Shown: positions 5,901-56,564 of the stretch, piece by piece
Layout of the letters: each line of letters begins with the position of its first letter
Numbering within the stretch: position 1 is the first letter of the stretch
NCBI RefSeq assembly: GCF_002159765.1
Contig: NZ_NFJH01000010.1
Coordinates: forward strand, 1-64,000
From: Collinsella sp. An268
GTDB lineage: Bacteria > Actinomycetota > Coriobacteriia > Coriobacteriales > Coriobacteriaceae
DNA length: 64,000 bases
Reading direction: 5' to 3'
The notes under the pieces: model-generated
Told to the model about the DNA's origin: nothing
Databases searched by the model: none
The model's input: only the letters and a program-made list of their open reading frames with translations
Made by a program: the position numbers and the translations under genes

Positions 5901-7184
5901 CTAGTCTTCGGCAAGATCGGGCACGCGTACGCGCGAAACCGCCGCGCCCAGCCCGACCAGCTTGTCGCAGAAGCGCTCATACCCGCGGTCAATGTGGTGG
6001 ATGGCGGAGACATCGGTCTCACCCTCGGCCACCAGACCCGCAAGAACCAGCGCCGCACCGCCCCGCAGATCGGGCGAAACCACCTGGGCGCCCGATAGCG
6101 AGGAGACACCGTGCACGATGGCATGGTGGCTCTCGATGCGTATTTCCGCCCCCATGCGCACGAGCTCGGAGGCAAACATAAACCGGTTCTCAAAAATGTT
6201 CTCGGTAATGACCGAGCTGCCGTCGGCAAGGGCAGAGAGCACCATGACCTGCGCCTGCATGTCGGTCGGGAAGCCCGGGAAGGGAAGCGTCTGGATATCG
6301 ACGGGAGTGAGATGACCGGCGCGCCATACGCGCACGCCCTCGGCCCCGCGCTCCAAGCGGATACCCATGAGCTCCATCTTCTTGAGCACCATGCCGAGGT
6401 GATGCGGGTTGAAGCCCGTGACCTCGATACCCTCGGGGTCGGCGGCGAGCGCTCCTGCCACGAGGAACGTACCGGCCTCAATGCGGTCCCCGATAACGCG
6501 GTGCGCCACGGGACGCAGCTCGTCGACGCCCTCGATGGTAACGACGGGCGTGCCGGCGCCCTCGATGCGGGCACCCATCTCATTCAGCATGTTGGCAAGG
6601 TCGACGATCTCGGGCTCGCGTGCCGCGTTATCGATCACCGTGGTGCCGCGGGCACGCACCGCCGCCATAATAAGGTTCTCCGTGGCGCCGACGCTTGCGA
6701 ACTCGAGGGTAACCGTGGTGCCGGTAAGGCCGTTTTCGGCGTCGGCGAAGATATAACCGTGGCTCGTGTCAAACGACACGCCGAGCGCCTCGAGGCCCAG
6801 GATATGCATATCGATCTTACGCGCGCCAAGGTTGCAACCGCCGGGCATGGCGATCTTCGCCCTTCCGAAGCGGCCGAGCAACGGTCCCATGACCGCCGTC
6901 GAGGCGCGCATCTTGGCGACGAGCTCGTAGGGGGCCTCCCATGAATTCGCACCGGAGGTGTCGATAGCGAGCGTGTGCTCGTCCAGCACCTCGATAGAGG
7001 CACCGAGACCCTTGAGCACTTTGCCCATAACGTGCACATCTGAGATGTTGGGGACGTTGGATAACGTCGTCGTGCCCGGAGCGAGCAGGGTGGCGGCCAT
7101 CAGCTTGAGCGCAGAGTTCTTTGCGCCTGAGACGCGCACCGAACCGGACAGGTCATGCCCGCCCTGAACACGAATGATATCCAA
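5901..7184 (-). CDS. murA: UDP-N-acetylglucosamine 1-carboxyvinyltransferase MurA
   Basis: MurA catalyses the first committed step of peptidoglycan precursor synthesis, transfer of enolpyruvate from PEP to UDP-GlcNAc. The 427-residue length is standard. The substrate Lys-Asn pair is in GAKNSALK (Lys22, Asn23). The reactive cysteine that fosfomycin alkylates is present as Cys117 in PGGCNLGARKID, so this protein is expected to be of the fosfomycin-sensitive type. The start is a TTG preceded by GAGGTAGGGA. The gene lies 54 bp downstream of atpC on the same strand with no obvious terminator between, so some transcription may read through from the ATP synthase operon. Confidence 0.96.
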   Translation of the reverse strand: MDIIRVQGGHDLSGSVRVSGAKNSALKLMAATLLAPGTTTLSNVPNISDVHVMGKVLKGLGASIEVLDEHTLAIDTSGANSWEAPYELVAKMRASTAVMGPLLGRFGRAKIAMPGGCNLGARKIDMHILGLEALGVSFDTSHGYIFADAENGLTGTTVTLEFASVGATENLIMAAVRARGTTVIDNAAREPEIVDLANMLNEMGARIEGAGTPVVTIEGVDELRPVAHRVIGDRIEAGTFLVAGALAADPEGIEVTGFNPHHLGMVLKKMELMGIRLERGAEGVRVWRAGHLTPVDIQTLPFPGFPTDMQAQVMVLSALADGSSVITENIFENRFMFASELVRMGAEIRIESHHAIVHGVSSLSGAQVVSPDLRGGAALVLAGLVAEGETDVSAIHHIDRGYERFCDKLVGLGAAVSRVRVPDLAED

Positions 7185-7635: not shown

Positions 7636-10001
<2,366 letters not shown>

Positions 10002-19354: not shown

Positions 19355-20422
19355 TTACACGGCCTGGGCGAGCTTCTCGGCACGATCGGCCGCTGCAAGC
19401 GCGTCGATCACCGTGCCCAGCTGGTCGCCCAACAGCACGCCGTTGTAGGTGGAGTTGAAGCCAATGCGGTGGTCGGTCACACGATCCTGCGGCTGGTTGT
19501 ACGTGCGGATCTTCTCCGAGCGATTGCCGTGGCCAATCTGGCTCTGACGCTCGGCGCCGAGCTCTGCCTGCTGCTTCTCGAGCTCCATCTCGTACAGGCG
19601 GGCGCGCAGCATCTGCATGCAGACCTCGCGGTTCTGAATCTGCGAGCGCTGCTCCTGCGACTGCACCACGGTGTTGGTCGGCAAGTGGGTGATGCGCACC
19701 GCCGAGTAGGTGGTGTTGACGCACTGGCCGCCCGGGCCGGAGGCGCAATACGTGTCGATGCGCAGGTCGGACTGATCGATCTTGATGTCGATCTCATCCG
19801 CTTCCGGCAGCACCGCCACCGTGGCCGTCGAGGTCTGGATACGACCCTGGCTTTCGGTCTTGGGCACGCGCTGCACGCGATGCACGCCGCTCTCGTACTT
19901 CATGACGGAATAGACCTTGTCGCCGTTCACCTTGAACTCGATGGATTTGAAGCCACCGGCTTCGCTGGGGCTCGAATCGAGCACCTCGAGCTTCCAGCCC
20001 TGTGCCTCGCAGAAGCGCTGGTACATCTTAAAAAGATCGCCGGCAAAGATGGCGGCCTCGTCGCCGCCGGCAGCGGAGCGGATCTCAACGATGGTGTTCT
20101 TCTCATCGTTGGGATCGCCCGGGATAAGCATGAACTTGATGTCTTCCTCAAGCTGGGGAAGCTTGGCCTCGTTGTCGGCGATGTCCTCCTGGAGCATGGC
20201 CTTCTCATCCGCATCGGTGGTGTCGTGCAGCATCTCCTTGGCGGCCTCGATGTCATCGAGCGCCGAGAGGTACTCGCGCGCCGCCGTCACCAATGCGGTC
20301 TGGTGCGCATACTCCTTGTTGAGGCGGGTGAACTCCTTGATATCGGATGCCACCGAAGGGTCGGAGAGCTTCTTTTCGAGCTCCTCGTAGGCGGCGATGA
20401 GTTTCTCTAGCTTGTCGCGCAT
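19355..20422 (-). CDS. prfA: Peptide chain release factor 1
   Basis: RF1 recognises UAA and UAG stop codons and triggers peptide release. The 355-residue protein carries the stop-codon-reading P-x-T motif as PKT in RVQRVPKTESQGR and the catalytic loop ASGPGGQCVNTTYSAVRIT, with GGQ intact. The N-terminal helical domain and the C-terminal domain have normal length. The substrate of the neighbouring prmC product is the glutamine of this GGQ motif. The ATG is preceded by AAAGGAATC. Confidence 0.97.
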   Translation of the reverse strand: MRDKLEKLIAAYEELEKKLSDPSVASDIKEFTRLNKEYAHQTALVTAAREYLSALDDIEAAKEMLHDTTDADEKAMLQEDIADNEAKLPQLEEDIKFMLIPGDPNDEKNTIVEIRSAAGGDEAAIFAGDLFKMYQRFCEAQGWKLEVLDSSPSEAGGFKSIEFKVNGDKVYSVMKYESGVHRVQRVPKTESQGRIQTSTATVAVLPEADEIDIKIDQSDLRIDTYCASGPGGQCVNTTYSAVRITHLPTNTVVQSQEQRSQIQNREVCMQMLRARLYEMELEKQQAELGAERQSQIGHGNRSEKIRTYNQPQDRVTDHRIGFNSTYNGVLLGDQLGTVIDALAAADRAEKLAQAV

Positions 20423-20710
20423 GATGATTCCTTTGCTGGTTGGGTGTGATGGAAGGGGGCTGTCACGCTGCGGCCGTCACCGGCGCCCGCATCGGGCGGC
20501 TCGCACACGGCGCATCGAACCGTAAGCCAGTTAGAACATGTCGAACCTTATGTACATGCGCTCTCCTTCTCTCAGCCCTCCTATGATACCCAGCTCGTAG
20601 CAAAACTCAAGGTGGGAGCGCAAGACCTCGGCTTCTCCAACCTTTCAACTCATGGGCCGCCCGCATGGCCGGGCGCACGGCAAGCCTCTCTTATCCCCTG
20701 CTCCGAGGGG

Positions 20711-20821
20711 ACAGAACCGGCAGATTGTATGTCCTGACGGGAGAGGGACAGAACCGGCAGATTGTATGTCACGACGAGAAAGGGAGAGAAACGGCAGATT
20801 GTATGTCCGTGCGGGGAGAAA
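20711..20821 (+). repeat. 37-bp tandem repeat, three copies
   Basis: Three head-to-tail units of exactly 37 bp (20711-20747, 20748-20784, 20785-20821). Each contains the 15-mer GGCAGATTGTATGTC at 20719, 20756 and 20793; the remaining part is purine-rich and varies more. The array lies in a 720-bp gene-free stretch between prfA and the DUF559-like gene. All three reading frames through it look non-coding. Inverted copies follow at 20902-21004, separated by a short stem-loop around AATGTAT-CTTTCT-ATACAAT (20830-20850). Confidence 0.9.
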
Positions 20822-20901
20822 AGGGGCGGAATGTATCTTTCTATACAATGCGCCGCTTTTTTGCACCTCTCTGAACTGGGCTTTTCCCGGCCGAAAGACA
20901 G

Positions 20902-21004
20902 AACATACAATCTGCCTATACAATCTGCCACTTTTCTCCCCGCACCACGGCGGACATACAATCTGCCCGATTCGTCCCCTCACGTCGCGTGGACATACGC
21001 TCCG
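20902..21004 (-). repeat. Inverted copies of the 37-bp repeat core
   Basis: The complement of GGCAGATTGTATGTC occurs at 20902-20916 (one change), again as a partial copy immediately after it at 20916-20929, at 20953-20967 (perfect), and as a decayed version near 20991-21004. Together with the direct copies this makes a palindromic array about 300 bp wide. The remaining gap up to 21199 contains only a possible -10 (TACAAT, 21112-21117). Confidence 0.85.
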
Positions 21005-21199
21005 CTTCGCTCGCCCTGCCTGTCCGGTCCGTGAGGCGCGCCGACTTTGCCCCCTCCGAAATCGTCCGCCACCGGGTTATCACACCTATCGGTGACTCCG
21101 TCAAATCCGCGTACAATTTGTGTCAGATTCATGACCCAAGTTTTTCTTTTCTCCCCGTTTCTTGTGCTGCAACGCGCCAGATGGCGGCATTATCTAGCC

Positions 21200-22201
21200 A
21201 TGAGTATCGTGGTGTCACATAGGACGGCACGCGCCTTCCACCAACTGCCCCTCCCGCTGGGCGACCTGCGCAGATTCCCCCTAGAACCGGCGCCCCTCAA
21301 AACCGGCGCACCCTGCGCGTGCTCGATCGCCTACGCCCGCGCGGCCCTGCAGAGGTCCGGCCCTGCAGAGGAAGCGCTCGAAAACCTCGAGGTTATCGTC
21401 TCGAAGCCGAGCGAGCGACGCGTCATGCCCGGCATCACCTGCCACCTGCTGGGCGGCGAACTTCCCGCCCGCACACTCCTCGAAATCGAAAAGGGAGTGC
21501 TCGTCCCCGACGTACGACTCTGCGCGCTTGGGGCGGCATCGTATCTGTCCCTGCGCGAGCTCATCGAGTACTATTTCGAGCTCTGCGGCACCTACGCCCT
21601 CTTCCCCGGAGGAAACGAATCGTATCGTAAGCTCAAGACGGCGCGCACGACCACGGAAGACCTGCGCGCGTTCTTTCTCGCGATGCGCCAACGCAATCAC
21701 GCCGCAAAAGCCCTGCGCGCGCTGCGCTATGTCCGTGACGGCTCGCGGAGCCCGATGGAGACCGCCACGGTCATGTTGCTCGTCCTGTCCATGCGCGAGG
21801 GCGGCTTGGGCATTCGCTCGGTTACCATGAATCACGAGATTCCGGTGACAAAAGCCGCGCGTAAACTCACCCGGCGAAAGACCCTTATTTGCGACGCGTT
21901 TATCGCGCGATGCCTGCTCGACATTGAGTACAACGGAATCCTCCACGAGCAGACTGACCAACGCATCATCGACGCGGAGCGCCTAAACGCGCTGCACGCC
22001 ATGGGATACGAGATGCTGGTAATCGATCGCTCCGCCCTGTTCAGCGTGCTGTCGTTCCGGCGTCTTATGGCGAGCATCGAGCGGCATGCACACATCAAGC
22101 AGCGCTATCTGAACGAAGCCTTTCGCATCCGCCAGGAGGAGCTGCGCACCTTCGTCCTCCGCAACTGCCGGAAGCCGGATGACAGCCCCTCCACACCGTA
22201 G
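21200..22201 (+). CDS. AbiEi-like protein with DUF559-type nuclease-fold C-terminus
   Basis: A 333-residue protein of unknown function. The N-terminus (SHRTARAFHQLPLPLGDLRR) and a middle helical part resemble the type IV antitoxin/AbiEi-like regulators found in many copies in Coriobacteriia. The C-terminal third has LLDIEYNGILHEQT then RIIDAERLNALHAMGYEMLVI. This fits the DUF559/Vsr-like restriction-endonuclease fold, in which an acidic residue, a Gly-x-x-His and an Asp-x-x-Arg...Leu...Gly stretch recur. The usual Asp before Gly is Asn here, so activity is doubtful. The start is uncertain: an upstream ATG at 21131 is open but its residues do not look conserved and no Shine-Dalgarno is clear for either. 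It converges on the aldose-epimerase-like gene. Confidence 0.6.
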   Translation: MSIVVSHRTARAFHQLPLPLGDLRRFPLEPAPLKTGAPCACSIAYARAALQRSGPAEEALENLEVIVSKPSERRVMPGITCHLLGGELPARTLLEIEKGVLVPDVRLCALGAASYLSLRELIEYYFELCGTYALFPGGNESYRKLKTARTTTEDLRAFFLAMRQRNHAAKALRALRYVRDGSRSPMETATVMLLVLSMREGGLGIRSVTMNHEIPVTKAARKLTRRKTLICDAFIARCLLDIEYNGILHEQTDQRIIDAERLNALHAMGYEMLVIDRSALFSVLSFRRLMASIERHAHIKQRYLNEAFRIRQEELRTFVLRNCRKPDDSPSTP

Positions 22202-41434: not shown

Positions 41435-41550
41435 CGCCCTGTGCTCTCGATGGGAACGGGTGCCCGGCAGAGGCTCCTTATGGCTGCTTCCTCCCGGACC
41501 TGACCAGGTTCGGAACATATCGTCACCCGAACCCATCGAACGCACAGGGC
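41435..41550 (-). ncRNA. ffs: Signal recognition particle RNA, small (4.5S) type
   Basis: The minus strand encodes a hairpin RNA of about 116 nt with ends GCCCTGTGC and GCACAGGGC that pair. Near the apical part it carries the conserved SRP core: GGTCAGGTCCGG, then AGGAAGCAGCC. These are the asymmetric and symmetric loops bound by the Ffh protein. A run of seven T residues (41430-41424) follows the closing stem, giving the terminator. The RNA lies directly downstream of the tadA-containing gene, an order also known from Bacillus. Confidence 0.95.
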
Positions 41551-43531: not shown

Positions 43532-43621
43532 GGAGAGATGGCAGAGCGGTTGAATGCGGCGGTCTTGAAAACCGTTAGGCGCGTGAGCGTCTCGGGGGTT
43601 CGAATCCCCCTCTCTCCGCCA
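43532..43621 (+). tRNA. tRNA-Ser (anticodon UGA)
   Basis: A 90-nt class II tRNA with a 7-bp acceptor stem (GGAGAGA/TCTCTCC), a long variable arm, TTCGAAT T-loop and an encoded CCA. The anticodon loop CTTGAAA gives UGA. A TATCAT element lies 10 bp upstream of the 5' end. Confidence 0.97.
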
Positions 43622-56489: not shown

Positions 56490-56564
56490 TGGAGCGGGCA
56501 ACGGGACTCGAACCCGCGAGTGTCAGCTTGGGAAGCTGATGCCTTACCACTTGGCGATGCCCGC
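56490..56564 (-). tRNA. tRNA-Gly (anticodon CCC)
   Basis: A 75-nt tRNA with acceptor stem GCGGGCA/TGCCCGC, D-loop AAGTGGTAAGG, anticodon stem TCAGC/GCTGA with loop TTCCCAA, T-loop TTCGAGT and an encoded CCA after discriminator T. The anticodon CCC reads GGG. Confidence 0.96.

Follow-up and report, generated by a model that had tools for sequence, protein, structure and literature searches.

The repeat array at positions 20705–20982 of the window (the whole 64 000-nucleotide stretch of the Collinsella sp. An268 genome that was analysed) is probably one copy of a dispersed, non-coding extragenic palindrome, which works in the manner of a BIME or REPIN and is copied in trans. The limits of the element come from a repeat search and from homology to the genome's 10 other copies, and we infer its mobility in trans from this dispersal. 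No description of it was found in the literature on Collinsella or Coriobacteriaceae repeats, and no Rfam family matches it, the sub-threshold hits to Rfam miRNAs being hairpin artefacts; the scattered palindromes have the appearance of small repeats, mobile or structural, of a family not described before.

On the plus strand, the array contains three contiguous units of exactly 37 bp at 20708–20744, 20745–20781 and 20782–20818 (identity 100, 89 and 78%, respectively), each with an exact copy of the motif GGCAGATTGTATGTC, at 20719–20733, 20756–20770 and 20793–20807. On the minus strand the motif is exact at 20953, in a third inverted unit located by repeat and motif searches (20953–20981), and recurs with one mismatch at 20902 and with three at 20915. 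When the window was shuffled 100 times with dinucleotides preserved, no shuffle reached six such matches (mean 0.94, largest 4), and the array is not a product of chance. The earlier note, made from the sequence alone, had described the three 37-bp units and a set of inverted copies around a small central stem, and both descriptions hold, the stem being at 20817–20862 and the copies within 20903–20981. The symmetric layout that it reported is also real, but it comprises two nested stems that were overlooked. The inner one is the plus-strand hairpin P2, in which 20817–20836 pairs with 20843–20862 around the loop CTTTCT (90% of cells paired, double changes in 6 of 20 pairs), and the other is P1, in which 20781–20804 pairs with a 3′ strand at 20918–20941 (minus). 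Likewise, the inverted side had been recognised but not its doublet, ACATACAATCTGCC / TATACAATCTGCC, which has a 13-bp spacing and lies at 20903–20929 (minus), and the centre had been reduced to its stem, whereas a 27-bp asymmetric core, GCACCTCTCTGAACTGGGCTTTTCCCG (20863–20889, plus), stands between hairpin and doublet and is common to Coriobacteriales. With their inverted copies the units make up imperfect arms of considerable length (30 nt at 87%, 28 nt at 89% and 17 nt at 100%), with the outermost pair at 20705–20734 and 20952–20981; degenerate extra units may stretch the element to about 21008.

Alignment further delimits a module of constant length at 20781–20941 (plus), which is matched by covariance model R1 at 154.7 bits and which measures 160–161 nt in 17 full copies from two species, at identities of 61–94%. 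Stops interrupt five of its six frames in many of the copies and the remaining frame in a few, which rules out a protein-coding array and bears out the earlier view that no plausible protein is encoded. Nor is this a CRISPR array, since the 37-mers are contiguous and then give way to inverted copies, with unique spacers absent. A 301-nt region around the array folds at −136.7 kcal/mol, where shuffles give −90.9 ± 5.1 (z −9.0), and its opposite strand is also very stable (z −8.5).

Sequence and model searches place 11 loci in the host genome (G000): the window copy on contig C2, a degenerate one on C3, three on C12 (one partial), two on C20, and single copies on C5, C6, C23 and C25; at a further C20 site only outer units remain. 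A genome-wide check of the 15-mer motif gave 28 sites at no more than two mismatches, nearly all in clusters of the same layout. Of the three suggestions first made for the array, namely protein binding, a BIME-like repeat or a structured RNA, this dispersal in clusters of one architecture best suits the BIME-like repeat. A lack of recurrence and of conservation in relatives had been named as the sign of a chance local duplication; the 15-mer recurs, is conserved in the sister species and belongs to an element that varies in copy number and presence, and that sign is therefore absent. Indeed, local duplication without wider meaning, which would account for the tandem spacing and for nothing beyond it, is refuted by the 10 other genomic copies and by families in other genera, and has next to no probability.

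The sister species (G001, with about 96% identical DNA and a contig that matches Candidatus Coprousia avicola) holds about 10 copies, nine of them at homologous sites, and neither BLAST nor the model finds the element in seven other genomes of the genus; it is also absent from the prfA locus of Collinsella sp. An307 and of a close relative. Other palindromes occupy some of these places. Upstream of prfA in Collinsella sp. An7 (L045) the matching intergenic region has a perfect palindrome (GGTACCCGGCCATTACCTGAGCGGCAAATCATGG) whose arms measure about 34 bp and which bears no relation to the window element, and a different, nearly perfect palindrome (CTTACGCAACAGAGTGCGGCAACGGCG...) is found at L225 (G002:C18, about 6350–6420), where G000 has its C25 copy. 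Divergence between the sister species is 7–19% for the elements and about 3% for coding sequences; for intergenic DNA it is mostly 5–13% (a set that includes one misaligned pair), and the elements therefore evolve no more slowly than the DNA around them. Deletion between short direct repeats has removed the palindrome's middle, and spared the outer units, at the further C20 site in G000 and at the C20b/C88 site in G001. In G001 the prfA copy is interrupted within the element, and part of the next gene is missing with it, although this genome is metagenome-derived and the cut may be an assembly fault. The copy losses are palindrome deletions and not transposon excisions. Close comparisons, which show losses rather than gains, contain no clean empty site with a target duplication, and the non-carriers are too diverged for insertion sites to be compared.

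The window copy lies between two divergently transcribed genes, in a gene-free gap of about 780 bp that extends from the start of prfA (20422, minus) to the ATG at 21200 of a plus-strand reading frame. Both neighbours are outside the element: prfA, for peptide chain release factor 1, at 19355–20422 (minus; Pfam PCRF and RF-1), and at 21200–22201 (plus) a weakly DUF559-like frame, whose single-stretch match to PF04480 (E 0.13) is below the cut-off. This frame has a 46%-identical paralogue at C3:18612–19580 and three more distant ones, and in G001 its copy is cut short by the deletion that begins within the element. The suggestion that its product acts on the array is not upheld, as the four genomic paralogues do not adjoin other copies of the element and a relative was found only once among element neighbours in other genomes; the gene is an incidental neighbour. 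Elsewhere in the window are a bacterial small SRP RNA (41445–41538, minus), a tRNA-Ser at 43532 and a tRNA-Gly at 56490.

Across the copies examined, 91 of 92 are intergenic, being set between tandem genes in 45 cases, convergent genes in 30 and divergent genes in nine, with seven at contig edges; the gene calls are based on codon usage, such that single contexts may be wrong. Orientation relative to the neighbouring genes is random, no clear replication-strand bias appears (48 of 92), and, apart from ABC transporters and other common housekeeping types, the elements have no gene family as a regular neighbour. Intergenic placement, the excess of convergent over divergent gaps and the equal folding of both strands would suit extragenic punctuation, in which copies are kept as bidirectional terminators, as stabilisers of mRNA ends or as sites for supercoiling or nucleoid proteins. 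We consider this quite unlikely, given that the region 20420–21250 contains no intrinsic terminator (a GC-rich stem followed by a T tract), that the window copy itself separates divergently transcribed genes and that copies have been lost without replacement in the sister species.

Beyond the genus it is the core, rather than the arms, that connects these elements. Its consensus, GCAnnTC[GT]CTGAGCTGGnnTTTTG[CT]CG, is met repeatedly in Coriobacteriales with palindromic arms next to it: in 329 genomes of Coriobacteriia the pattern has 53 sites as against six for a reversed control, and this is an undercount, since the core differs from family to family. When the flanks were tested for inverted repeats, 27 distinct core sites reached z ≥ 5, of which 16 lie outside the window's genus, the remaining sites having z mostly near zero. 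The covariance model of the 161-nt module adds candidates in other Coriobacteriaceae, L148 (49 bits) and L150 (33 bits), which have the unpaired linker in common with the window element but not the arms, and it was this linker that supplied the pattern for the search in Coriobacteriia; a third, L149 (46 bits), has no clear core. The arm sequences are unrelated between lineages, with GGCRGATTGTAT in the window and GGAAGTGCATCGAT, GTAGATGTGAACTC, TGAGGCGGTGTC, AAAAAGCAGATATTCCA and CGACTTGTGCACGATT elsewhere, and in other lineages too one motif is often repeated, direct and inverted, within an element. Whole-element searches recovered dispersed families of 7–23 copies in at least six other genomes: 23 copies in G318 (CTCTGACCTGCGGTTTTGCTGA), 14 each in G371 and G054, 13 in G035, 11 and 7 in two families of G011, and 10 in G300. 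The aligned copies of these families keep the core, and this is independent evidence because the pattern search itself selects for the core. No covariation supports a small apical hairpin inside it.

The core-like string CCACGTCGATGAGCTGGGGTTTTGCAG, present in six genomes (for example L191, L235 and L238–L241), lacks paired arms and was set aside; two matches on viral contigs, which by eye also lack them, look incidental, and no phage or plasmid was matched as a carrier. At L204 (G291:C27, about 9577–9760), long direct repeats contain two core-like strings, about 157 bp from each other and without paired arms. A second palindrome of G011, approximately TGCGCCAAATTAGGCCCGGCCTAATTTGGCGCA, flanks many element copies in that genome on one or both sides (L345, L347, L348 and L352), and, as a possible counterpart of the GTAG/CGTC-type tetranucleotide tag of REP palindromes, the pattern GAGTAG...CTACTC is seen by eye in some families (G011, G032 and G010) and is absent from the window copy. 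It is conceivable, though short of an even chance, that the elements make up an undescribed, order-wide non-autonomous class in Coriobacteriales, in which the core would be read as single-stranded DNA or RNA by a dedicated factor and the arms would be rewritten in each lineage by copying between them.

The arms covary. In the window's family, 88% of P1 and P2 cells are paired and nine pairs show double changes; none of 500 shuffles attains the covariation score, but 32 of 500 reach the count of double-change pairs, and on its own this covariation is therefore modest. In G318, whose arms are about 95 nt apart, 9 of 17 pairs show double changes, with 23 double-change cells as against 7.5 ± 2.7 in shuffles (none of 500 as high). 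Such compensatory changes, together with the strong folding, the constant module length and a conserved asymmetric core between paired arms, would be expected of a structured RNA, whereby the copies are transcribed and form a long hairpin whose core is bound by a protein or has an effect in cis on nearby mRNAs. This reading, also raised by the earlier note, appears unlikely. A strand-specific signal is absent, both in the gene-relative orientation, which is random, and in the mispairs, where G-U is not clearly favoured over A-C (40 versus 32, and 23 versus 10); no Rfam family matches, and divergence between the sister species is no lower than that of intergenic DNA. Moreover, template switching at quasipalindromes, an established mutation mechanism (PMC7202029, PMC8604942), yields the same covariation, which is therefore no proof of RNA.

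In some G318 copies the whole motif has changed simultaneously in several units, a single unit in L291 having stayed as it was, and this points to copying between units. The same copies bear on a further explanation, namely that a sequence-specific DNA-binding protein, with a specificity that changes from lineage to lineage, binds the array as a set of sites. A motif which is direct and inverted at 37-bp spacing, which is the best conserved part of the arms and which each lineage has in its own version could well be read in this way. We nevertheless regard such an array as improbable: no regulator consistently neighbours the copies, the whole-motif changes in G318 run in step across the units of single copies, as conversion predicts, and the core is conserved even though it is not the repeated motif.

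If, as we favour, the element is a palindrome copied in trans, the question arises of the enzyme involved. REP elements are thought to be moved by RAYT enzymes encoded beside them (PMC3116915, PMC2817692). The window's genome has one RAYT-like Y1 gene (C12:66790–67803, with an orthologue in G001) and, distinct from it, a plain IS200 TnpA. Long, RAYT-like Y1 genes occur in G000, G001, G011, G054, G032, G300 and G361, only an IS200-type Y1 gene in G371, and none at E ≤ 0.001 in G318, G035 and G236. No element stands beside the Y1 genes of G000, G001, G011, G054 and G371 or beside one of the two in G300, the second of which has only a 23-bp, 87% match to the element about 0.6 kb away, and the core is absent from all 19 Y1 loci (68.7 kb). 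No transposase is tied to the element as its mobiliser, RAYT enzymes included, and in three hosts a RAYT cannot be the present partner unless one escaped the search. Other, related palindromes (TTGGGGACGTGYTCC...) adjoin the RAYT-like genes of G011 and G054 (L365, about 2000–2075; L368, about 2240–2332) and are perhaps the REP-type repeat of those genes.

The preferred mechanism would then begin with the copying of a master element, for which the core, flanked by a hairpin in single-stranded DNA, would be the likely recognition site of a putative enzyme. After insertion, the arms would stay complementary mainly through template switching or inter-unit conversion at quasipalindromes, and perhaps also since mobility needs the hairpin to form, and copies would decay by palindrome-mediated deletion. 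The array ends vary in unit number, which leaves the transposing unit undefined, and copy number may formally also have grown through segmental duplication. Most of what is known of extragenic palindromes in bacteria comes from proteobacteria and from the RAYT enzymes associated with these repeats; if the present reading is true, a conserved core, replaced arms and hosts in which no Y1 gene was detected would together mean that another mobilising or maintaining factor exists. The families also form a natural series in which to ask whether arm covariation arises from selection for a hairpin or from template-switch mutation, a distinction that is a general trap in the discovery of structured RNAs.

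With regard to known systems, the element resembles MITEs in being short, non-coding, dispersed, intergenic and built on inverted repeats, but neither a target-site duplication nor an autonomous partner was found for it, and its conserved internal core with arms that vary by lineage is the reverse of the MITE arrangement. BOX, ERIC and Correia-type repeats are modular extragenic repeats with stem-loops, the number of units in BOX being variable; the present element differs from these in sequence and host, and in that its arms are replaced between lineages while its core stays. From IS200/IS605 it differs in that no TnpA cleavage-site arrangement was identified in it and Y1 loci are without the core, although the hairpin ends of those elements, in which folded single-stranded DNA is combined with non-palindromic recognition bases, offer a plausible analogue of core and hairpin. 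The likeness to REP, BIME and REPIN sequences extends further: these too are dispersed, extragenic, non-coding, lineage-specific palindromes (PMC3116915, PMC2817692), with units in alternating orientation, often as inverted doublets, and hairpins with compensatory changes. The differences are that 7–23 copies were found per genome, as against more than 100, that the element is larger (160–330 bp, with several units per arm), that one asymmetric core is common to families with unrelated arms, and that no RAYT gene lies beside the copies, with no Y1 gene detected in three hosts. Because long Y1 genes are absent from those three hosts and none has an adjoining element, we do not file the element as a member of the REP family, and instead regard it as a distinct type of dispersed palindrome that is BIME/REPIN-like.
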